A stretch of DNA of 64,000 bases. Source: Haloarcula sp. H-GB4. GTDB lineage: Archaea; Halobacteriota; Halobacteria; Halobacteriales; Haloarculaceae. The stretch is from contig NZ_JAVDDX010000003.1 in the NCBI RefSeq assembly GCF_030848575.1, positions 62,001 to 126,000 on the forward strand, given 5' to 3'. Below the pieces are notes generated by a model, which saw nothing but the letters and a program-made list of their open reading frames with translations, was not told the DNA's origin and ran no database searches. Positions 40,976 through 57,631 of the stretch are shown piece by piece. Made by a program: the position numbers and the translations under genes. Positions within the stretch are counted from its first letter, which is position 1. Every line of letters begins with the position of its first letter.

Positions 40976-42271
40976 CTACGGCCAGAGCCCCCGTGCTTCG
41001 TGAGCCTCCGCGATACGGGACAGGGCGACGACATACGCCGCATCGCGCCACGTGATGTCGCGGTTTTCGAACTCCGTTCGGACTGCGTCCCAGGCCGCTC
41101 GCATCTCTTCGTCGAGTTCGTCGTTCACTCGCTCGAGTGACCACGACCGACGGTTGATGTCCTGTAGCCACTCGAAGTAGCTCACCGTGACGCCGCCGGC
41201 GTTCGCCAGAATGTCCGGAATCACAACGACATCCCGGTCAGCGAGGATGGAGTCAGCAGTGGACGTCGTCGGGCCGTTTGCCCCTTCGACGACATAATCC
41301 GCAGCGATGTCGTCCGCGTTCGCTTCGGTAATGACGTTTCCGAGCGCTGCCGGAATGAGGACATCGACATCCAGCGTCAGCAGTTCATCGTTCGAAATCA
41401 CGGTGTCGGCGTACTCGGTGACCGCTTCCGGTTCCTCGTCGTGTGACGGGACTGTCGCCGTATTGATTCCGTCGGGGTCGTACATTGCCCCGTTCACGTC
41501 GCTGATCGCGACAACAGTCGCGCCCTGTTCGTCAAGCAACCGTGCTGCGTTCGCACCGACACTGCCGTAGCCCTGTACTGCGACCGTGGTCTCCGACAGT
41601 GGCTGGTCGTAGTACTCACAGACCAACTGTGTGATAATCGCGACACTCCGGCCGGGCGCGTCTTCACGCCCCTCGCTCCCACCGACAATCGGCGGCTTCC
41701 CGGTGACAACACCCGGAATCGTCTCGCCCTCTTGCATGGAGTAGGCGTCCATCAGCCAGGCCATCGTCTGTGGGTCCGTTCCCATGTCCGGGGCTGGTAT
41801 GTCCCGGTTTGGCCCGATGACCTCGCGGAGTTCCTGCGCGAACCGGCGGGTGAGCCGTTCTTTTTCGTCTCGGCTCAGCGTTTTCGGATTGACCGCGATA
41901 CCCCCTTTTGCGCCGCCGAAGGGGAGGTCCATCACCGCGCATTTCCAGGTCATCCAGATTCCAAGCCCGACACATTCGTCCCTGGTCACGTCAGGGTGAT
42001 AGCGAAGCCCGCCTTTGTACGGTCCCCTGACGCTATCGTGCTGGGCCCGATACCCGGTGAACACTTCCACTGTGCCATCGTCCCGCTCAATCGGGACGGT
42101 AACCTCATGGACGTTTTGCGGATGATTGAGTCGTGCGACAATGTTCGGGTCGATATCGAGGTGGTCCGCAGCCCTGTGGAGTTGCAAACGGGCTGTTTCG
42201 AGCGCGGATTCCGGTTCGGACGACGTCGACGAGTCTCCCGATGGAGAAGTGGAGCTCAGTTCCGGTCCCAT
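40976..42271 (-). CDS. gdhB: Glutamate dehydrogenase
   Basis: A 431-residue Glu/Leu/Phe/Val dehydrogenase family enzyme interconverting glutamate and 2-oxoglutarate plus ammonium. It has [10 protein letters not shown] and the catalytic-lysine segment [22 protein letters not shown], then the NAD(P) fold [17 protein letters not shown]. The first ~25 residues are a Ser/Glu-rich extension. A 47-residue zinc-ribbon gene ends two bases upstream. A paralogue lies at 46169. The B symbol is tentative. Confidence 0.92.
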
Positions 42272-46048: not shown

Positions 46049-46168
46049 ACGATTCGGACCCATTCGCGGTTGTAAGCCCCTCATCTAGCCTCTTCTATAT
46101 CGAATGATATAGTAATTTTCCTGGTAGAAATGGGTAGCTTTTGGTATCTCGATGAATCCCGTCGATAT

Positions 46169-47422
46169 ATGTCTGATGTAAATCCGTACCAAAGCCTGCG
46201 GACGCAAATCGACGCAGCAGCACAATACTTAGACATCTCAGAGGGACAACTGGAACGGCTGAAAACCCCTGAGCGGATACTGGAAACGAATCTGTCTGTT
46301 GAGATGGACGATGGGTCGGTGGAGGTATTCCGTGCGTATCGGTCACAGTTCAACGGCGACCGTGGCCCGTACAAGGGCGGAATCCGCTATCATCCACAGG
46401 TAGACCGCGACGAGGTCAAGGCGCTCTCCGGGTGGATGGTCTACAAGACGGCGGCGAGCGATATCCCGCTCGGCGGTGGCAAAGGCGGAATCGTCATCGA
46501 CCCGAGGAACTATTCCGAGAGCGAACTGGAGCGGGTCACACGCTCATTTGCGAAGGAACTGACGCCACTGATTGGGGCCGACCGTGACGTGCCCGCACCT
46601 GACGTCAACACGGGCCAGCGCGAGATGAACTGGATCAAAGACACCTACGAGACACTCGAAAACACGACAGAGCCCGGCGTGATAACCGGGAAGGACCTCG
46701 CAAGCGGTGGCAGTGAAGGCCGCGTCGAAGCGACCGGGCGTTCGACGGTCGTCGCAGCACGTGAAGCCTTCGAGTATCTTGACAAGGACATCGAAGGCGC
46801 GACGGTCGCGGTTCAGGGCTACGGGAACGCCGGCTGGATCGCAGCGAAACTCATTCACGAAATGGGGGCCAACGTCGTCGCCGTGTCCGATTCGAGCGGC
46901 GCGATATACAGCGACGCGTCGTTCGACCCCGTCGCAGTCAAGGACTACAAACGCGAAACCGGGAGCGTCGTCGGATATACCGACGCGGCGGAGGAACTCA
47001 CGAATGATGAACTGCTCACGCTCGACGTCGACCTGTTGATCCCGGCCGCACTCGAAAACGCCATCGATGAGTCGCTGGCACATGACATCTCTGCCGATGT
47101 CATCTCTGAGGCTGCGAACGGACCGATTACTCCCGCAGCAGACGACGTTCTCAGCGACCGCGAGACGCTGGTCATTCCGGATATCCTCGCGAACGCGGGC
47201 GGCGTCATCGTGTCGTACTTCGAGTGGGTCCAGAACAGGCAGCGCTTCTACTGGTCCGGAGAGCGTGTGAACGAGGAACTGGATTCGATTATCGTCGAGC
47301 AGTTCGGGAACCTCGTCGACGCCTACGAGGAGCGAAACCTCTCCTCGCTCCGAACCGCCGCATACGTCGTTGCACTCCAGCGGGTGATGAACGCCGGCGA
47401 GCAGAGCGGCACTTGGCCGTAA
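46169..47422 (+). CDS. gdhA: Glutamate dehydrogenase (second paralogue)
   Basis: A 417-residue enzyme clearly homologous to the product of 40976-42271. It has [33 protein letters not shown] with the catalytic lysine, DVPAPDVNT and [20 protein letters not shown] 46169 ([10 protein letters not shown]) is preferred over a longer frame because the extra 13 residues lie in AT-rich leader sequence. An RHH regulator gene follows 100 bp downstream. The letter A is tentative. Confidence 0.92.
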
Positions 47423-47522
47423 CGGGTTCTGAACCACATCGGCCGCCGTTCTCGCTGCCATGTTGAGAGCCCTCTGTCACCAAACGACACGATATTAAGA
47501 CCATCCAGTGAGCAGAGGCACT

Positions 47523-48068
47523 ATGCCAACCGACCGCGTCACCGTCTCTCTCGACGAGGAGACCAAGGAGACGTTAGAAGGGCTAACCGACCGAACTGGG
47601 GAAAGCCAGAGCCAGTTGATCCGCGAGGCAATCGCGTTCTACGCGGCAAACTTCGACTCGGCGCACGCAAGTGATAGCGATCACCTCCAGACGTACTACG
47701 AAATGCTCTCGACGGGCGAACACGTCCTGCTGGACATCGACCTGCTGCACGCACTCCTGCGTCAGTTTACTGACCCGGATGAGCGGGACGAGGAGGTTCT
47801 CAATATGATCGATCAGGTGGCACAGTACCACGCTCAAGAGTATGCCGAGCGGTTCGATTCGCTCGAAGATGTTCTCGAATGGCTCTCACTGTGTGGGTTC
47901 CTGACCGTTCGGCGGGACGAAAAGGGGAGTTTCCACGTGGTGTTCCCATCCGAATCGGTGCGGTGGTTGATGATTCGGTTCATCCGCGGTAGCATCGCCG
48001 ACCTTCCGTTCGAAATTGAAATCGAAGAGAGTGTTTCGAAAGTACTATTAAGAGAACGAGAACCGTGA
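47523..48068 (+). CDS. Ribbon-helix-helix (CopG-like) transcription regulator
   Basis: A 181-residue protein. Residues 1-45 (DRVTVSLDEETKETLEGL, then SQSQLIREAIAFY) form the RHH DNA-binding fold. The C-terminal ~130 residues are helical with a Leu/His-rich part (GEHVLLDIDLLHALLRQF) and probably a ligand or dimer domain. It stands between gdhA and the transporter/oxoprolinase operon, so it may regulate either. Confidence 0.8.
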   Translation: MPTDRVTVSLDEETKETLEGLTDRTGESQSQLIREAIAFYAANFDSAHASDSDHLQTYYEMLSTGEHVLLDIDLLHALLRQFTDPDERDEEVLNMIDQVAQYHAQEYAERFDSLEDVLEWLSLCGFLTVRRDEKGSFHVVFPSESVRWLMIRFIRGSIADLPFEIEIEESVSKVLLREREP

Positions 48069-48248
48069 ATACCTCTGCACGGAACGCAAACCGACTCGAA
48101 TCTGGGGGTTGGGTATTTCTTACTATTTCACACACTTGGTGACGTATACACAGGGTTCATACGACCGATGTTCCGGCCACACACAGGTCTTAACAATGTT
48201 TTTCCTTACCTGCCGGGACCGTGACAGTGGCTATCAAAACCAACAATC

Positions 48249-49457
48249 ATGAGCATTACAGAACGACTCAAAGCCGTCGGCCCGGGGGCGATGGTCGCCG
48301 CCGCGTTTATCGGTCCTGGCACGGTCACGACTGCGAGCGTCACCGGAGCGGAGTTTGGCTACGCGCTTCTGTGGACCATGGTCTTCTCGATTGTGGCAAC
48401 GATCGTTCTCCAAGAGATGAGTGCGCGGCTTGGCCTTGTCTCGGGGGAGGGGCTCGGGGAAGCACTTCGAGAACGGTTCGACAATCAAATCGTCGAGTAC
48501 GTGAGTATATTCCTCGTTGTCGGCGCGATCGGCGTCGGGACCGCCGCCTATGAGGCTGGGAATATCCTCGGCGGTGCCGCAGGGCTCGCGACGATCACGG
48601 GTATCGACTCAACGGTGTGGGGGGTCGTGATGGGACTCGTCGCCGGACTCCTGCTCTACACTGGGCGCTACAAGTTGATCGAACGAGCGCTCATTGGTCT
48701 GGTCGCCGTGATGGCGTTCTCGTTCGTAGCATCGGCGGTGCTTATCGGTCCCGACCCCAGTGCGATTGCGATGGGGTTCGTCCCCGGTATCCCCTCGGGG
48801 TCGCTGTACCTCATCACCGGCCTCATCGGAACGACCATCGTCGGGTATAATCTGTTCCTGCACGCGAGTAACGTCCAAGAGCGGTGGAGCGGTCCCGACG
48901 ATATCGGCCACTCCCGTATCGACACGGTGGTGTCGATCGTTGCGGGCGGCATTATTACGATTACGATCATGGTGACCGCGGCCGCAGCATTCGAGCCCGG
49001 AACGCAGATCAGCGATATCGGTCGGATGGCCGAACAGCTGCGCCCCATCGCGGGTCCGTACGCCGAACTGTTCTTCAGCATCGGCATCTTCGCCGCCGGA
49101 TTCACGAGTGCCACGACAGCACCGCTCGCGGGCGCGTGGGCGACAACAGGTGCACTCGGCTGGGATTCGGATATGCAGAGCACACAGTTCCGTGCCGTCT
49201 GGGGGACCATCCTCGGCGTCGGGGTTCTCTCGGTGTTGCTGGGTGGCAGTCCCGTCCAGATCATCGTGTTCGCACAGGTGGTCAACGGGATTTTATTGCC
49301 GATCGTCGCGGTATTCCTGATATACGCGATGAACCAGCGGGACCTCCTCGGCGAGTACACGAACGGGTCGATAGCGAACGCCCTCGGCGCGATTGTGACG
49401 CTTATCGTCGTGTGGCTCGGGGTTCGGACGCTACTCAGCGTCGCGGGGGTGCTGTAG
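48249..49457 (+). CDS. NRAMP-fold transporter lacking the metal-binding motifs
   Basis: A 402-residue membrane protein with 11 predicted helices and clear NRAMP ancestry (PGAMVAAAFIGPGTVTTASV in TM1, YNLFLHASNVQ in TM6). The canonical TM1 DPGN is GPGT (G22-T25), and the TM6 MPH is VGY (198-200), so three metal ligands or gating residues are gone. Its stop adjoins hyuA with no gap. B. subtilis YcsG, an NRAMP relative in the 5-oxoprolinase operon, is a precedent. Transport of pyroglutamate or a related compound is inferred. Confidence 0.85.
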   Translation: MSITERLKAVGPGAMVAAAFIGPGTVTTASVTGAEFGYALLWTMVFSIVATIVLQEMSARLGLVSGEGLGEALRERFDNQIVEYVSIFLVVGAIGVGTAAYEAGNILGGAAGLATITGIDSTVWGVVMGLVAGLLLYTGRYKLIERALIGLVAVMAFSFVASAVLIGPDPSAIAMGFVPGIPSGSLYLITGLIGTTIVGYNLFLHASNVQERWSGPDDIGHSRIDTVVSIVAGGIITITIMVTAAAAFEPGTQISDIGRMAEQLRPIAGPYAELFFSIGIFAAGFTSATTAPLAGAWATTGALGWDSDMQSTQFRAVWGTILGVGVLSVLLGGSPVQIIVFAQVVNGILLPIVAVFLIYAMNQRDLLGEYTNGSIANALGAIVTLIVVWLGVRTLLSVAGVL

Positions 49458-51452
49458 ATGGGCGGCCGGCGGGTCGGTGTCGACGTCGGTGGAACCTTCA
49501 CTGACGTGACGCTGTCGCTCGATGGGGAGCTCGTGACCGCGAAAGTCCCGAGCACTGAAGACCAGAGCGAGGGCGTTATCGCCGGGATCGAGAAGGCCTG
49601 CGAAGCGGCTGATATCGACCCTGAGACCGTGAGCGAGTTCTCTCATGCGATGACCGTCTCGGTCAACGCACTGCTCGAAGAGGACGGCGCAAAGACCGCA
49701 CTCGTCACGACAGACGGGTTCCGGGACGTTCTGGAGATCGGTCGGCAGGACCGCCCGTCGCTGTACGACCTGTCGGCCGAAAAGCCGACACCGTTGGTTC
49801 CCCGCCGCCGCCGCTTCGAAGTGTCCGAACGGACGATCACCGACGGTATCGAACAGCCCGTCGACGAGGACGAAGTCCGGGCAATCGCCGAGCAGCTACG
49901 CGAGATGGATGTCGAGTCTGTCGCCGTCTCGCTCTTGCACGCGTACGCACACCCCGAAAATGAAACACGCGTCGCAGACATCCTGCGGGATGAACTCGAC
50001 GTGCCCGTCTCGGCCTCGCACGAAGTCCTCGCCGAGTTCCGCGAGTACGAACGAACGTCGACGACAGCCGTCGACGCCTACGTACGGCCGGCGATTGACC
50101 ACTACGTCAGCCGTCTGACCGACCGTGCGCGGGACCTCGGCGTTCCACAGCCCCGAATTATGCAGGCGAACGGCGGTATCACCGACACTGCTACCGTCAG
50201 ACGGAACGCCGTGACAACCGTCCTTTCGGGCCCTGCCGCCGGGGTCGTTGGGGCAGGGTCGATGGCGTCTGAGGAACAGGACGGGCTAGTCACGTTCGAT
50301 ATGGGTGGGACCTCTAGTGACGTTAGTCTCGTCCGCGACGGTGAAGCGGAACGGACGACAGAGGGCGTCATCAACGAGCGGCCGATCAAGACACCGATGG
50401 TCGACGTCGAAACAGTCGGTGCAGGTGGCGGGTCCATCGCCTGGGTCGACGCCGGGGGCGCACTCCGAATCGGCCCGCGTTCCGCCGGAGCTACCCCCGG
50501 TCCAGCCTGCTACGGGGAAGGCGGAACTGAGCCGACCGTCACTGACGCGAATCTCGTGCTGGGCTATATCGGCGAAAGCACAAGTCTGGGTGGTGAACTC
50601 TCACTCGATGCGGATGCCGCCTACGACGCGCTTGCGGACCTCGCCGACGAGGCGGGTCTCGGTGGGCCTCTGGAAGCCGCCCGTGGCGTCTACCGCGTCG
50701 CGAACGCGAACATGACCAGAGCCATTCGCTCCGTGACCGTCGAGCGTGGGTACGACCCGCGGAAGTTCGGGCTCGCCGCGTTCGGGGGTGCCGGGCCAAT
50801 GCACGCGGCGGCAATCGCGGACAGCCTCGATATCGATCGAGTGGTGATTCCGCGCGCTTCAGGCGTGCTGTCGGCATACGGTTTGCTCGCAGCTGACGAG
50901 AAGCGCGACGCAGTACGGACGTATCAGCGCTCGCTCGACGCGGTCGACCCCGACGAGGTCGACACAGTCTACGAGGAGTTGTCCGAAGAACTTCTGGCTG
51001 AGGTTAGCGACCGCGAGGCAGCGACAGTGCGACACTCAGCCGACCTCCGGTACGCCGGCCAGAGTTTCGAACTTACCGTAGACGTCGACCGGCCGTTCGA
51101 CACCGCGGACGCCCGCGAGCGTTTCGGGTCAGCCCACGAGTCCGCGTACGGCTATCGAGCGGACGAGTCGGTCGACCTGGTGAACTGTCGCGTGACGACG
51201 ACCGTCGAACGGAGCGCGCCGCCGGTCAAGTACACTGCCGAAGGCGACCCACAGAAGGGCTCTCGGGAGGCGGTGTTCGCCGACGAGGTCCGCGAAACCC
51301 CGGTCTACGAGCGAGCGAAACTGCAACCACAGAATAGCATCGACGGCCCCGCGATTGTCGAGGGCGATGAGAGCACAATCGTCATCCCACCGACGTGGAA
51401 CGTCCAGGTGCGCGATGACGGGACACTGACAGCGGCGGTGAGCGACACATGA
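49458..51452 (+). CDS. hyuA: Hydantoinase/5-oxoprolinase subunit A
   Basis: A 664-residue ATP-dependent amidohydrolase subunit. It opens with the ASKHA phosphate motif GVDVGGTFTDVTLS and carries the hydantoinase A core QANGGITDTATVRRNAVTTV, GGTSSDVSLV and KFGLAAFGGAGPMHAAAIA. With HyuB it cleaves 5-oxoproline or hydantoins with ATP; N-methylhydantoinase and acetone carboxylase are relatives. It starts directly after the transporter stop and overlaps hyuB by four bases. Confidence 0.9.
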   Translation: MGGRRVGVDVGGTFTDVTLSLDGELVTAKVPSTEDQSEGVIAGIEKACEAADIDPETVSEFSHAMTVSVNALLEEDGAKTALVTTDGFRDVLEIGRQDRPSLYDLSAEKPTPLVPRRRRFEVSERTITDGIEQPVDEDEVRAIAEQLREMDVESVAVSLLHAYAHPENETRVADILRDELDVPVSASHEVLAEFREYERTSTTAVDAYVRPAIDHYVSRLTDRARDLGVPQPRIMQANGGITDTATVRRNAVTTVLSGPAAGVVGAGSMASEEQDGLVTFDMGGTSSDVSLVRDGEAERTTEGVINERPIKTPMVDVETVGAGGGSIAWVDAGGALRIGPRSAGATPGPACYGEGGTEPTVTDANLVLGYIGESTSLGGELSLDADAAYDALADLADEAGLGGPLEAARGVYRVANANMTRAIRSVTVERGYDPRKFGLAAFGGAGPMHAAAIADSLDIDRVVIPRASGVLSAYGLLAADEKRDAVRTYQRSLDAVDPDEVDTVYEELSEELLAEVSDREAATVRHSADLRYAGQSFELTVDVDRPFDTADARERFGSAHESAYGYRADESVDLVNCRVTTTVERSAPPVKYTAEGDPQKGSREAVFADEVRETPVYERAKLQPQNSIDGPAIVEGDESTIVIPPTWNVQVRDDGTLTAAVSDT

Positions 51453-53077
51453 ACGACGAAGCTACGACATCGAGTGACGGACAGGAGACAATCGACCCTG
51501 TAACGCTGGAAATCCTCAGGAACCAGCTCGAGAGTGTCGCAACCGAGATGGGCCACGTGCTCATCCGGGGGGCGTACTCCCCGAACATCAAGGAGCGACA
51601 GGACTGTTCGACGGCGCTCTTCGACGCGTCGGGTCGGATGGTCGCACAGGCGGAACACATCCCGGTCCACCTCGGCGCGATGCCCGATGCAGTGGATGTT
51701 GTCCTCAAGAATGACCCGAAACCGGGCGACGTCTTCATCGTTAACGACCCGTTCGCGGGCGGGACACACCTCCCGGACATCACGCTCGTCTCGACCATCG
51801 CGCCTAACGACGAGATAGTCGGGTACGCCGTCTCGCGGGCCCATCACGCCGACGTGGGCGGGAGTTCGCCGGGAAGTATGCCACCGGGCGCACAGGAAAT
51901 TTACGAGGAGGGGCTCCGCCTGCCTGCTGTCCGACTCGTCGACGGTGGCGATCCCAATGAGGCGGTTCACGACCTCATCCGTGCCAACGTCCGGACGCCG
52001 GACGAGCGCGAGGCGGACCTTCGGGCCCAGCGCGCGGCAAACGAACGGGCCGAGGAACGCATCGGTGAACTCCTGTCGGAGCACGGGCCGACACTGCTCG
52101 AGGCGTTCGATGCCGTCATCGAGTACTCCCGCGAGCGGGTCGAGGCTGAACTCGACGCGCTCCCGGACGGAACGTATCGAGCGCAGGATATCCTCGAAGG
52201 CGACGGCGTGACCGATGCCGACATCCCGATTGAAGTGGCCGTCACCATCGATGGGGCCTCGATAGCCGTCGACTTTGCCGGGACTGCCGACCAGGTGGCG
52301 GGCAACCTGAACGCACCCCTGTCGGTCGCGAAGAGCGCGGTCTACTTCGTCGTTCGAGCGATCACCGATCCGGAAATACCCCCAAACCACGGCTGTTACG
52401 AGCCGGTATCCGTGTCCGCACCTGAAGGGTCAGTACTCAACCCGGACGCGCCGGCCGCAGTCGTCGGTGGCAACGTCGAGACGAGTCAACGCGTCATGGA
52501 CGTCACACTGGCAGCGCTCGCCGAAACAGTCCCCGATAGGGTTCCTGCCGGCGGACAGGGAACGATGAACAACCTCATCATCGGTGACCGGACCGGCGAT
52601 TTCACCTATTACGAGACTATCGGCGGCGGGTTCGGTGCCCGGCCCGGGAAAGACGGGATGGACGGCGTACAGGTCGGCATGACGAACACGCTCAACACGC
52701 CTGTCGAATCGATGGAGGCCGAGTATCCGCTCCGAGTCGAGCGGTACGCGCTGCGTCGGTCAAGCGGCGGCGACGGCCGATACCGCGGCGGACTGGGCCT
52801 CGAACGCACCGTTACCGTTGAGACCGACGCCACCGTGTCACTGCTGACTGAGCGGCGGCGGACGGCTCCTGCCGGAATCGATGGCGGCGAGGATGGCGCG
52901 AGAGGGGAGAATCTGGTCGACGGCGACCCCGTTCCTGCGAAGGCGTCCGTTGACATCGAGGCCGGGACGACCGTCTCCGTCCGAACGCCCGGTGGCGGCG
53001 GACACGGCGATCCGGCAGAGCGGGACCCGGAAGCAAGAGAGCGTGACCGACGCGATGGGAAGGTAGACGAGGTGTAG
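51449..53077 (+). CDS. hyuB: Hydantoinase/5-oxoprolinase subunit B
   Basis: A 542-residue subunit. The characteristic N-terminal block TLEILRNQLESVATEMGHVL is followed by VNDPFAGGTHLPDITLV and SRAHHADVGGSSPGSMPPGA. Near the C-terminus GGFGARPGKDGMDGVQVGMT and VRTPGGGGHGDP are typical. It forms the enzyme with HyuA. The ~20-residue charged tail is halophile-specific. It ends the three-gene operon. Confidence 0.9.
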   Translation: MNDEATTSSDGQETIDPVTLEILRNQLESVATEMGHVLIRGAYSPNIKERQDCSTALFDASGRMVAQAEHIPVHLGAMPDAVDVVLKNDPKPGDVFIVNDPFAGGTHLPDITLVSTIAPNDEIVGYAVSRAHHADVGGSSPGSMPPGAQEIYEEGLRLPAVRLVDGGDPNEAVHDLIRANVRTPDEREADLRAQRAANERAEERIGELLSEHGPTLLEAFDAVIEYSRERVEAELDALPDGTYRAQDILEGDGVTDADIPIEVAVTIDGASIAVDFAGTADQVAGNLNAPLSVAKSAVYFVVRAITDPEIPPNHGCYEPVSVSAPEGSVLNPDAPAAVVGGNVETSQRVMDVTLAALAETVPDRVPAGGQGTMNNLIIGDRTGDFTYYETIGGGFGARPGKDGMDGVQVGMTNTLNTPVESMEAEYPLRVERYALRRSSGGDGRYRGGLGLERTVTVETDATVSLLTERRRTAPAGIDGGEDGARGENLVDGDPVPAKASVDIEAGTTVSVRTPGGGGHGDPAERDPEARERDRRDGKVDEV

Positions 53078-53139: not shown

Positions 53140-53700
53140 TCAGCTGTTCGGCGTATCGATAGCCTCCTGCACACCGAGCCAGTTCGTGATAGAGCCGTCG
53201 GGGCCAGTAAGTGGCACTATCGTCACTCGGTTTTTGAAGTGTGTCCCGTCCGCTCGGTAGTTCCACAGTTCGACGGTCCGCTGTTCCCAGATATCGATCC
53301 CTTCCTGGAGCGTTGCGATTGCATCGGAGTCAGTTGCTGGTCCCTGCAGCAATCGAAGGTTCTCGCCGCGAAGCGCGGCTAGCGAGTACCCGGTCATCTC
53401 CTGGAACGTCTGTGTCGCATATCGGACTGGATTGTCCTGATACGCCGGGCCAGTGAGCGTCAGGCCCAGAGGGATCGTCCCAAGTCGCACCATTTTCGCG
53501 ATATATTCTCGCTCAAAACCCGTTACCGAGGTAGGCTCGAATCCCTTGAAATCCTGAAGGAGAGCGGCCGGTGACTCGTCAGCGGGTTCCGGGTCAACAC
53601 TCTGGAGGTTGTGTGTTTCGACGAGGTCCGGAAGCCGACGGCGAAACTGCTCCTCGTCGAGCAGCATGGTTTCGATAAGTACGTCCCTGAGTGAGGCCAT
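53140..53700 (-). CDS. Short LOV-type PAS protein without the photoactive cysteine
   Basis: A 186-residue protein from ATG 53700 (an upstream ATG at 53778 would add 26 residues). Residues ~75-183 are a LOV-like PAS domain: TGYSLAALRGENLRLLQGP, LWNYRADGTHFKNR and WLGVQEAI. The flavin-contacting Asn/Asn/Gln positions (N148, N157, Q178) are kept, but the adduct cysteine is L115. An N-terminal helical domain of ~60 residues precedes it. It may bind flavin without photochemistry or act as a plain PAS sensor. Confidence 0.78.
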   Translation of the reverse strand: MASLRDVLIETMLLDEEQFRRRLPDLVETHNLQSVDPEPADESPAALLQDFKGFEPTSVTGFEREYIAKMVRLGTIPLGLTLTGPAYQDNPVRYATQTFQEMTGYSLAALRGENLRLLQGPATDSDAIATLQEGIDIWEQRTVELWNYRADGTHFKNRVTIVPLTGPDGSITNWLGVQEAIDTPNS

Positions 53701-53829
53701 GTTCGCGGTCAGTTGATCTAGTCGGCGGTGACACAAACTCCCGTCGGTGTCCGGCCTGTGGCCGCTCAGCCGTGCCATTCATGCTGATACAGCACCTGTT
53801 ACAGGTACGCGCTCGTCCCTACGATACCA

Positions 53830-55001: not shown

Positions 55002-56468
55002 TCAGTCACTATCTGCCGGTGCAGCCACGTTACTCGTCATATGCTCGTCAGCCTCAGTCTCAGTATATGTGATCTGCCAGCCGGTAACTCCCATGAGAAT
55101 GAGGATGAGCGGCGAAAGGAAGCCCAGGAAGTAGTAGGGCGCATACTGGAACGTGCTGACGCCGAGCGTGCCAGCCATGAACACCGCGCCGCTGTTCCAT
55201 GGAATGAGCGCACTTGTGACAGTCCCGGAAGATTCAATCGCCCGCGAAAGGTTCTCCGTCTTGAGTCCCTTCTCTTCGTAGAGACTGCCCAGCGTCACGC
55301 CAGGAACAACGATACTGATGTACTGTTCTGCCGCAAGGACGTTCATCGAGACTGACGACAGAACCGTAATGCCGGTGAGACTTCCAACGCTCTTGCTGAG
55401 CCGGCCGAGATGATGAGCTAAGACAGCGATAATTCCAGTACACTCGAACAGGCCGCCCAGTGCGAGTGCGGCGATAGCAATTGTTACCGCCCATGCACCG
55501 CCAACCATGCCACCGCTTGCGAGGAGGCCGTTTACGAGTTCCATCCCCGTTTCCGGGCTTGTCCCACTCTGTGCAACGGTCCAGACAGACGTGAACGAGT
55601 TGCCCTGAAGCACGGCCGAGGTTATCGCGCCGGCAAAGACACCAGCACCGAGAGCTGGAATCGCGGAGATGCCGTAGATCGCCAGCCCGAATGTCACGAG
55701 AAGCGGGAAGAAGGCGAGCGGAGAGATCGTGAACGAACCCGTAAGTGCCGTCTGGATCTCAGCGATCCGATCAACAGGAATAGATCCTGACGCGCGAATA
55801 CCGAGACCGGCGTACAGGACGACAGCGATAGAGAAGGCAAGGAACGTCCCTGCCCGCATCGCATTGATATGATCGTACAGATCGGTGTTCGTCACCGCCG
55901 AAGCGAGGTTTGTTGTGTCCGAGAGCGGTGACTGCTTGTCACCCGTGTATGCGCCGGTGAGGATTGCACCTGCGGTCATCGGCTCAGGGAGCCCGAGTCC
56001 CGAACCGATTCCGATGAAGGCAACACCGAGCGTCCCCGCCGCGGTCCACGATGACCCGATGGCAAACGTTATCGCCGCAGTGATGATCGCTGTGAGCGGG
56101 AGGAACACTATCGGGTGCAGCAGGTCAAGGCCGTAGTACATGAGTGTCGGAATCGTTCCAGCATGTATCCAGGTCGAGATAAGCGCATAGACGATAAACA
56201 GGATGAATACGACCTGAATGCCCATCAGCAGCGTATGTGTGATTCCAGCATACATCTCGTCCCAAGAGATGTCGAATCGGTAGTAACTGAACAGTCCAGT
56301 GAAGGCAATGCCCCAGAGGAGAGGGAACTGCGGGTCAAGTCCGTAAATTCCGATTCCTATGCCCAGCGCGGTTAGCATCCCGATGATCGGTATCAGCGCC
56401 TCCCCCAGAGAGGGTCGGTCTTCGGGGTCAATGTCGTCGTACAGCTTGATGTCGAATTCAGAACTCAT
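55002..56468 (-). CDS. nhaC: Na+/H+ antiporter NhaC family
   Basis: A 488-residue membrane protein with about 11-12 helices. The conserved stretches AITFAIGSSWTAAGTLGVAF and GDKQSPLSDTTNLASA belong to NhaC. The central GLLASGGMVGGAWAVTIAIA is also typical. It would exchange Na+ for H+, or, in some family members, substrates such as malate and lactate. An IclR-type regulator is divergent upstream, which hints at a carboxylate-linked role. Confidence 0.9.
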   Translation of the reverse strand: MSSEFDIKLYDDIDPEDRPSLGEALIPIIGMLTALGIGIGIYGLDPQFPLLWGIAFTGLFSYYRFDISWDEMYAGITHTLLMGIQVVFILFIVYALISTWIHAGTIPTLMYYGLDLLHPIVFLPLTAIITAAITFAIGSSWTAAGTLGVAFIGIGSGLGLPEPMTAGAILTGAYTGDKQSPLSDTTNLASAVTNTDLYDHINAMRAGTFLAFSIAVVLYAGLGIRASGSIPVDRIAEIQTALTGSFTISPLAFFPLLVTFGLAIYGISAIPALGAGVFAGAITSAVLQGNSFTSVWTVAQSGTSPETGMELVNGLLASGGMVGGAWAVTIAIAALALGGLFECTGIIAVLAHHLGRLSKSVGSLTGITVLSSVSMNVLAAEQYISIVVPGVTLGSLYEEKGLKTENLSRAIESSGTVTSALIPWNSGAVFMAGTLGVSTFQYAPYYFLGFLSPLILILMGVTGWQITYTETEADEHMTSNVAAPADSD

Positions 56469-56836
56469 TCGTAGTAATTCAATTACGTATCGCGTTTCCG
56501 CTCGTTGCGCAGTGATCTATTTGCATCAGAGTCTGTTCTGACTGATGGGGTTCGGATCAGCTTTTCAGTCGCTATACCGGTAGTTTGGCGACTACACCGA
56601 CTGTGGCAACAGCGCATGTCGTTTGCTCCATCGACACCATCATTAATAAAAGTTCATGCAGAGGCGGGATGCTGACAGTCGATGAATCTGGCTCAGATTA
56701 AATTGTGCGTCGAAATCCAATGCACTGAGGCGGACCGTCCCAGTCTGGTCCGTATATAGTAGAGAAAGGGCTACAGCAACAGACTGTGCGTTCGATATAC
56801 CAAAATCATATAACCATGATAACCGAGGATCAGTAC
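56469..56836. promoter_or_regulatory. Divergent nhaC / iclR intergenic region
   Basis: These ~370 bp separate the antiporter and IclR genes. AT-rich segments occur near nhaC (AATTCAATTACG) and near iclR (CATTAATAAAAG at 56640; CCAAAATCATATAACC at 56801). The latter is a fair TATA candidate for iclR. I see no long palindrome. Confidence 0.4.
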
Positions 56837-57631
56837 ATGACTGAACGCGAGCCACCGTCCCGACGAATCAAGTCGATGCAGACTGCCAGTGAGGTCCTGC
56901 GTGAAATTCAGTCACAGTCTGAGGCGACGCTGTCCGATCTCTGTGAGGATATAGATGTTGCTAAAAGTACGCTACATACGTATCTACAGACACTCGTTGC
57001 TGAGGACTTTATCGATAAATCAGATGGCGTCTATCGATTAGGCCTGCGGTTCATACCGCTCGGTGAGAGCGTCCGGAATCGGGTTGACCTCTATCAGCAC
57101 GGCAAAGAGGAAGTAGAGCGCCTCGCCGAAGAGACAAACGAATGGGTCCATCTCACAGTTGCGTACCGGAACAGGGAGGTAACGCTGTACGAGCATAATG
57201 AGGGCGAAACTGTCGCCGTGGACTATCAACGGCGAACCAGAGAATCCCCACAGTATCTCCACTGTACTGCGACCGGAAAAGCGCTGCTGGCATATTTCGA
57301 TGACGATCAAATCACTGAAACAGTGGCTACTGAAGGACTTGTGCAGCAGACTGAGAAGACGATCACCGAACCCGACGAGCTGCGGGAAGAACTCGCAGAA
57401 ATTCAAAGCAGGGGGTACGCGGTAAACGATGAGGAAGAAATCCGGGGGATGCGATCCGTAGGCGCTCCGATACAGGACGTGGACGGCACGGTCTGTGGTG
57501 CGATCAGTGTGACCGCACCGAAAACGCGACTCTCCGGTGAATACCTCTGTAGTGACCTCCCGGAATTGGTGATGCAGGCAGCAAACATCATCGAGATCAA
57601 TTTGGAGTCCGCAGCCGCCAGCAGCGAGTAG
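56837..57631 (+). CDS. IclR-family transcription regulator
   Basis: About 264 residues from ATG 56837; ATG 56816 is an alternative. It has an N-terminal winged HTH (SDLCEDIDVAKSTLHTYLQTL at ~35-55), then an effector domain with LRFIPLGESVRNRVDLYQHG, YLHCTATGKALLAYF and GMRSVGAPIQDVDGTVCGAI, as in IclR proteins that bind small organic acids. Divergence from nhaC suggests control of that gene; the effector is unknown. Confidence 0.9.
   Translation: MTEREPPSRRIKSMQTASEVLREIQSQSEATLSDLCEDIDVAKSTLHTYLQTLVAEDFIDKSDGVYRLGLRFIPLGESVRNRVDLYQHGKEEVERLAEETNEWVHLTVAYRNREVTLYEHNEGETVAVDYQRRTRESPQYLHCTATGKALLAYFDDDQITETVATEGLVQQTEKTITEPDELREELAEIQSRGYAVNDEEEIRGMRSVGAPIQDVDGTVCGAISVTAPKTRLSGEYLCSDLPELVMQAANIIEINLESAAASSE

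Follow-up and report, generated by a model that had tools for sequence, protein, structure and literature searches.

The 64,000-bp window analyzed here (Haloarcula sp. H-GB4, contig NZ_JAVDDX010000003.1, positions 62,001 to 126,000) encodes an NRAMP-fold carrier that lacks the canonical metal-site motifs and shares an operon with hyuA and hyuB, genes of an ATP-dependent lactamase. Comparisons of sequences, gene neighborhoods, and trees indicate that the carrier is probably an importer of 5-oxoproline (pyroglutamate) and the operon probably a scavenging system for it. The genome is haloarchaeal, with Haloarcula as the nearest named relatives, and contains two HyuA genes and two proteins of the NRAMP family PF01566; both of the latter are non-canonical, and a canonical NRAMP is absent. 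A search for PxpA (PF03746) found none in this genome. The elements of the locus are the following (TM, transmembrane helix):

47508-48068, + strand: gene for a ribbon-helix-helix (RHH, CopG-type) protein that probably regulates the carrier operon locally (PF01402 RHH_1, E 5.5e-11).
48069-48248, + strand: intergenic leader from regulator to carrier, presumed promoter/operator by its position only.
48249-49457, + strand: NRAMP-fold carrier, 402 aa, proposed importer of 5-oxoproline (PF01566, AlphaFold2 model, clade, neighborhood).
48312-48323, + strand: GPGT of TM1 (residues 22-25), which takes the place of DPGN (alignment).
48549-48563, + strand: TM3 motif YEAGN, residues 101-105, with N105 in place of the invariant Glu.
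48840-48848, + strand: VGY of TM6 (residues 198-200), which takes the place of MPH (alignment).
49275-49286, + strand: Q343 and N346 of TM10; N346 is common to the bacterial PxpT carriers, and canonical carriers have Leu.
49458-51452, + strand: hyuA, encoding the subunit that uses ATP in an ATP-dependent lactamase, which is probably a 5-oxoprolinase (PF05378, PF01968, PF19278).
51449-53077, + strand: hyuB, metal-dependent ring-opening subunit (PF02538, 679 bits).

The gene order on the + strand is RHH regulator, carrier, hyuA, hyuB. The stop codon of the carrier is followed on the very next base by the start of hyuA (gap 0), and hyuB shares 4 bp with the end of hyuA, which supports the operon proposed in the initial annotation.

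The carrier scored 346 bits against PF01566 (Pfam cut-off 29.8) and 111 bits against the broad NCBIfam model Nramp_1 (cut-off 50), and fell under the cut-offs of the NCBIfam MntH model (192 against 430 bits) and of TIGR01197 nramp (109 against 272.5 bits). Its AlphaFold2 model, built from 37 window and locus sequences, had a mean predicted local distance difference test score (pLDDT) of 91.4. The closest solved structures were DraNramp, NRMT, and Bacteroides MntH (Z 48-51), and amino-acid carriers that share this fold (AdiC, ApcT, and AgcS) ranked next at Z of about 28-32. A shared fold is by itself no proof of function. In the alignment with the canonical Burkholderia MntH, GPGT lies over DPGN and VGY over MPH, as the initial annotation had read them. 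These motifs are not chance variants, since GPGT occurs in 135 and VGY in 58 of 356 PF01566 proteins.

The window carrier resembles canonical NRAMP/MntH/SLC11 proteins in fold (DraNramp, Z 50.6, root-mean-square deviation 2.3 Å over 379 residues) but has neither the TM1 Asp/Asn nor the TM6 Met/His, and the TM3 Glu is replaced by Asn. The magnesium carriers of the NRMT type likewise share the fold (EleNRMT, Z 48.4) and lack the full canonical site; unlike the window carrier, they retain the TM1 Asp and the TM3 Glu and have a TM6 Trp. Position 22 was Gly in all sequences read from the clade of the window carrier and from the PxpT type, and Asp in 79/79 canonical and 15/15 NRMT-type proteins. Asn occupied position 105 in 96%-100% of window-clade sequences and in all PxpT sequences, against Glu in every canonical and NRMT-type protein. 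Tyr was invariant at position 200 in the window clade and PxpT, where canonical carriers have His and NRMT-type proteins Trp. Position 346 was Asn in the window clade, PxpT, and about half of the NRMT-type proteins, and Leu in canonical carriers. The site residues G22, N105, Y200, and N346 are therefore common to the window clade and PxpT despite 20%-24% identity. The earlier claim that residues for metal binding and proton relay are missing holds for DPGN and MPH, whereas the polar residues E102 (TM3), H205 (TM6), and Q343 (TM10) are retained. Of these, E102, the closest counterpart of the TM3 acid, is no fixed proton acceptor, because the position is Gln in 48% of haloarchaeal orthologues.

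The link between site motifs and gene neighbors was surveyed in 390 NRAMP reading frames with a minimum length of 250 aa, of which 356 were distinct. TM1 and TM6 were read by script, and a neighbor was called when a Hyu or Pxp gene was found by tblastn (E <= 1e-5) within 1.5 kb of the carrier. The sources were 194 haloarchaeal genomes, 80 window-clade loci identified solely from a sequence pattern, 28 of the genomes that carry those loci, even samples of Bacilli (61 genomes), Actinomycetes (60), Bacteroidia (60), and Gammaproteobacteria (56), plasmid records, and E. coli. Most matches were taken for Bacilli, Actinomycetes, and Bacteroidia; those of Halobacteria comprised all 55 orthologues and 35 other listed matches.

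None of the 79 canonical DPGN/MPH proteins had a Hyu or Pxp neighbor. Among GPGT/VGY proteins, 54 of 56 had one, and two N-terminally incomplete VGY proteins, both positive, bring this to 56/58, all with Hyu. Bacterial relatives with GPGT or GPGS and VPY or VTY had such a neighbor in 34 of 84 cases: 32 Pxp and two Hyu among the 77 GPGT/VPY proteins, and none among the six GPGS/VPY and the single GPGT/VTY proteins. The PxpT type (GPGF or GPAF with GGY) was positive in 21/23 cases, always with Pxp, or in 18/20 without three proteins obtained through pxpA. All other non-canonical motifs gave 0/112. NRMT-type carriers had no lactam-enzyme neighbor (0/15). Loss of DPGN alone was thereby ruled out as a marker. 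The initial annotation had expected motif loss to go with oxoprolinase neighbors; the link is strong but belongs to one site architecture, GPG(T/F) with (V/G)(P/G)Y, since it is absent from the 112 other non-canonical proteins. Its central claim, that this branch carries pyroglutamate or another cyclic amide rather than metal, is supported by the survey as the likely substrate class. The class counts are not independent events, because sequences within a class are related; their kinship is addressed by the trees.

The 80 loci found by pattern alone comprised 32 with full PxpABC, one with PxpA at a contig end, four with Hyu, and 43 with neither. In 36 of the 37 positive loci the enzyme was on the carrier strand, mostly less than 75 bp away, and in most pxp-linked loci pxpA, pxpB, and pxpC occupied positions +1, +2, and +3 from the carrier. 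Positive loci spanned Bacteroidota, Bacillota, Actinomycetota, Pseudomonadota, and Halobacteria. The 43 enzyme-free loci, inspected for other recurrent partners, had only lineage-bound neighbors, and no other recurrent transporter was obvious beside stand-alone haloarchaeal HyuAB in 20 loci.

In a FastTree tree of 127 rows, the window clade (37 rows, 95), canonical carriers (32 rows, 100), and PxpT (7 rows, 100) were separate; the branch values quoted here all belong to starred branches. A mixture-model IQ-TREE tree of 46 of these rows, unrooted and with some long branches that make deep placement less sure, recovered canonical carriers (100/100), the window clade (100/98), and PxpT (100/100), with the window carrier outside the canonical, PxpT, and NRMT clades. 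Asp-bearing rows (100/99) were sister to the window clade (96/91), and PxpT grouped with other Gly-type groups beyond the branch of these two. Asp versus Gly in TM1 required one change on this tree. The residues described as missing are thus absent but need not have been lost, and the TM1 aspartate is more readily explained by one gain on the metal branch, or by one change of either direction.

A within-clade tree of 50 rows placed the haloarchaeal VGY carriers as sister to the pxp-linked carrier of Natroniella (98/92), near the pxp-linked one of Alkalihalobacillus, and two Hyu-linked Bacteroidota carriers inside a pxp-linked group (96/94). Since both Hyu-linked groups nest among pxp-linked carriers, those around the haloarchaeal group being from Bacillota, HyuAB replaced PxpABC as the partner of the same carrier on at least two occasions. 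The two enzyme families have no sequence similarity to each other (PMC8453981). 5-Oxoproline is the substrate compatible with both partners, ring opening of this lactam being known for either family.

The domains and the catalytic and metal residues of ATP-dependent lactamases (5-oxoprolinase, HyuAB, and the caprolactamase CapAB) are conserved in the window enzyme. HyuA has the Pfam domains Hydant_A_N, Hydantoinase_A, and Hydant_A_C, HyuB has Hydantoinase_B, and HyuA residues D9 and D281 align with D11 and D295 of CapA, while HyuB residues D52, H107, D110, and H132 align with the metal ligands of CapB (CapAB residues as named in PMC8453981). A different cyclic amide, such as hydantoin, N-methylhydantoin, a dihydropyrimidine, or another lactam, might be carried here, with 5-oxoproline left to the bacterial relatives. 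The best PDB sequence match of both subunits is indeed N-methylhydantoinase (457 and 276 bits for HyuA and HyuB), the best NCBIfam models are those of caprolactamase, the hydantoin carrier Mhp1 of the LeuT fold appears in the fold list, and the haloarchaeal VGY, instead of VPY, in TM6 could alter specificity. We consider this unlikely. The nested position of the haloarchaeal carrier, with PxpABC-linked carriers around it, speaks for a conserved substrate, and PxpT has Gly at the same TM6 position. In contrast to CapAB, the window proteins stayed under both NCBIfam caprolactamase cut-offs (530.2 and 251.7 of 1000 bits), and the vicinal cysteine pair of CapB is absent from HyuB. Furthermore, HyuB shares GGNVxxSQR (GGNVETSQR in the window), QGTMNN, and YYET with the enzyme of the Hyu-linked Bacteroidota, and N-methylhydantoinase and CapB lack these motifs at the corresponding alignment positions. 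A check of the HyuB signature at 30 loci found both motifs in 21 and neither in nine, where the script probably took the longer antisense frame.

The Bacteroidota partner is a fused HyuA-HyuB protein of 1252 aa encoded directly beside the carrier in two metagenome-assembled genomes (L064:6422-10180 and L066:2229-5987); the start of its N-terminal domain matches poorly, and its C-terminal half is 39% identical to the window HyuB. A fused build was described for oxoprolinases, in contrast to the unfused hydantoinases and caprolactamase (PMC8453981). The PDB N-methylhydantoinase chain of 1288 aa matches both HyuA and HyuB and is therefore fused too, which makes fusion suggestive of oxoprolinase and no proof of it.

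A close functional precedent is PxpT, together with YcsG (MntG) and PxpG. Like the window carrier, these have the PF01566 fold, GPG in TM1, GY in TM6, and equivalents of N105 and N346, and lie in an operon with an ATP-dependent lactam-opening enzyme. They differ in their low identity to the window clade, from which starred branches separate them, in their own TM1 GPGF and TM6 GGY, and in having Asn at the E102 position of TM3 and Gly at that of H205. They are bacterial in our sample, and their partner is PxpABC, versus HyuAB for the window carrier. The window carrier most likely works like PxpT while standing outside the PxpT clade. The YcsG precedent offered by the initial annotation thus holds as to an NRAMP relative beside 5-oxoprolinase genes; it comes, though, from another branch with an unrelated enzyme, and its function is disputed. 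The YcsG motif was sought through the PDB sequence set and had no match there; an integrative YcsG model nonetheless appeared in the fold list.

In Corynebacterium glutamicum, pxpT was needed for growth on 5-oxoproline and the mutant was normal on glucose, although the authors' data still allowed for metal transport (PMC13274462). On the other hand, YcsG of Bacillus subtilis was renamed MntG because its overexpression raised cell Mn and its operon was bound by MntR, and its role with 5-oxoproline was questioned over polar effects (PMC10448178). The window carrier might accordingly still import a divalent metal, Mn2+ or Mg2+, and feed the metal-dependent HyuB or PxpA subunit. Metal ligands are kept in HyuB, and NRMT moves metal without the full canonical site (PMC4072509). 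Such a role is distinctly unlikely: every sampled metal group, YcsG apart, bears the TM1 Asp and the window clade never does; of the many enzymes that have metal sites, none recurs next to the window clade except those that open lactams with ATP; the pxpT mutant grew normally on glucose and failed to grow on 5-oxoproline; and YcsG belongs to another branch. The database label "Nramp family divalent metal transporter" is in all likelihood wrong for these proteins. An independent branch with a swapped, non-homologous enzyme is a type of evidence on the Mn2+ versus 5-oxoproline dispute over YcsG and PxpT that appears in the available parts of neither paper.

The window clade fits the Slc11 "orphan outgroup" of Cellier by the substituents described for it: helix 3 Tyr and Asn four apart, Val and Tyr in helix 6, and Thr for A228, seen in the window carrier as Y101/N105, V198/Y200, and T195 (PMC10606218). 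That outgroup was reported to have no features for Mn and proton transport and to be nearest to Slc11 (PMC9606685), the position that the window clade takes on the IQ-TREE tree. For Shin et al., it connects the metal carriers to the non-metal ones (PMC4072509). Bozzi et al. dropped sequences without DPGN/MPH (PMC6398981), so that the window clade lies outside their alignment. The present loci differ from the published account of the outgroup in that its available parts name neither a substrate nor a gene neighborhood. Among open-licence papers, at the level of titles and abstract beginnings, no tie of the window clade to HyuAB or pyroglutamate was found. The operon thus provides a candidate function for the outgroup and a candidate route for pyroglutamate in haloarchaea, and the sister position to metal carriers makes the origin of SLC11 metal selectivity testable by a few residues (D/G22, E/N105, H/Y200). 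More tentatively, in a picture that may well prove wrong, the whole outgroup would be widespread pyroglutamate carriers using two non-homologous 5-oxoprolinases and sister to metal carriers, the metal carriers would have arisen by change of a TM1 Gly in an organic-solute site (GPGT) to the metal-binding Asp (DPGN), and PxpT would be a second, older or convergent pyroglutamate branch.

As an importer of 5-oxoproline, the carrier would be a LeuT-fold secondary transporter from a branch of PF01566 in which the metal site is absent and may never have existed. In amino-acid carriers, backbone amides of a GxG motif bind the carboxylate. By analogy, the TM1 GPG could bind the carboxylate through its backbone amides, and 5-oxoproline would probably be held by its carboxylate and lactam groups at the unwound TM1 (GPGT) and TM6 (VGY), with N105 and N346. 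Import would be coupled to Na+ or H+, and a Na2-like site could include T286-S287 of TM8. HyuAB would then open the lactam at the cost of ATP to yield glutamate.

Several observations weigh against this scheme. Besides the Mn and MntR data for YcsG, the HyuAB family also acts on hydantoins and caprolactam. There was no Hyu or Pxp neighbor within 1.5 kb of 2/58 haloarchaeal and 50/84 bacterial carriers. In favor of the scheme, PxpA is encoded elsewhere in 34 of 37 genomes searched behind the 43 enzyme-free loci, a raw count uncorrected for the background rate. A complementary distribution of PxpABC and the HyuAB-carrier pair in Halobacteria was not seen: 10 of the 23 PxpA genomes also had the carrier, with about 6.5 expected among the 194 haloarchaeal genomes. 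Finally, the enzyme does not need the carrier, since a close HyuA (E <= 1.7e-190) was present in 138/194 haloarchaeal genomes by hand count and the carrier in 55/194. In a fair reading, HyuAB would be a common haloarchaeal enzyme, perhaps serving internal 5-oxoproline, to which the carrier adds uptake. Haloarchaea contain much glutamate, which cyclises. This and the frequency of HyuAB without the carrier, which may point to internal repair, would suit an exporter or overflow valve for internal 5-oxoproline or glutamate. That direction is very improbable: export would be wasteful alongside an enzyme removing the same solute, and PxpT works in uptake (PMC13274462).

The RHH gene, whose start may alternatively lie later, near 47523, tracks the carrier: of the 57 haloarchaeal carrier loci that left space for such a gene, 51 had a homologue upstream on the same strand, versus 0/20 carrier-free HyuAB loci of haloarchaea. 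The idea of an operator palindrome common to the carrier loci was rejected, the best pair of 6-mer arms occurring in only 7 of 51 upstream regions.

D-Glutamate cyclase converts D-glutamate to 5-oxo-D-proline. In line with the proposed substrate, its gene (PF07286) lies 33 bp upstream of the carrier in Natroniella acetigena, between pxpA and the carrier. Within 4 kb, it was found at 11/23 PxpT, 2/84 VPY/VTY (including Natroniella), 0/58 VGY, 0/79 canonical, and 1/112 other loci. A PF01566 protein of Bacilli (genome G259, locus L292) with TM1 GPGT and TM6 PPN is encoded 211 bp from a D-glutamate cyclase gene, with no pxp genes, and is perhaps another 5-oxoproline-linked carrier type.

Other PF01566 types were also noted. 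The second protein of the window genome (L002, C1:608683-609684) has TM1 GPAT and TM6 HIT, also without metal ligands; this type recurs in Halobacteria with no lactam-enzyme neighbor. A further haloarchaeal type with TM1 GSGS and TM6 LWP (22 distinct proteins, e.g., at L379 and L382) has no lactam-enzyme neighbor either, and its TM1 resembles that of amino-acid carriers. A Neorhizobium protein (L036:6025-7209) with TM1 GPGN and TM6 SIN, whose gene neighbors encode a dihydrodipicolinate synthase family protein and a LacI regulator, is possibly another organic-solute NRAMP.

The suggestion that nearby glutamate dehydrogenases use the product did not hold up. The window has two such genes, at 40976-42271 (- strand, above the GdhB cut-off, 792/620 bits) and at 46130-47422 (+ strand, under it, 490/620 bits), but the association is not conserved. 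The second gene is not at this place in Haloarcula marismortui, where gdhB alone is nearby, about 4 kb upstream of the carrier but on the opposite strand, and none was found within 6 kb of the carrier in Haloferax mediterranei or Natrononativus; glutamate dehydrogenase was therefore rejected as a part of the system. Downstream of hyuB, the window encodes a PAS protein (53140-53778, - strand), whose closest models are those of the YtvA/LOV blue-light receptor with scores under the cut-offs, and the arginine/ornithine antiporter ArcD (55002-56468, - strand, 805 bits against a cut-off of 650), whose gene diverges from that of an IclR-type regulator (56786-57631, + strand).

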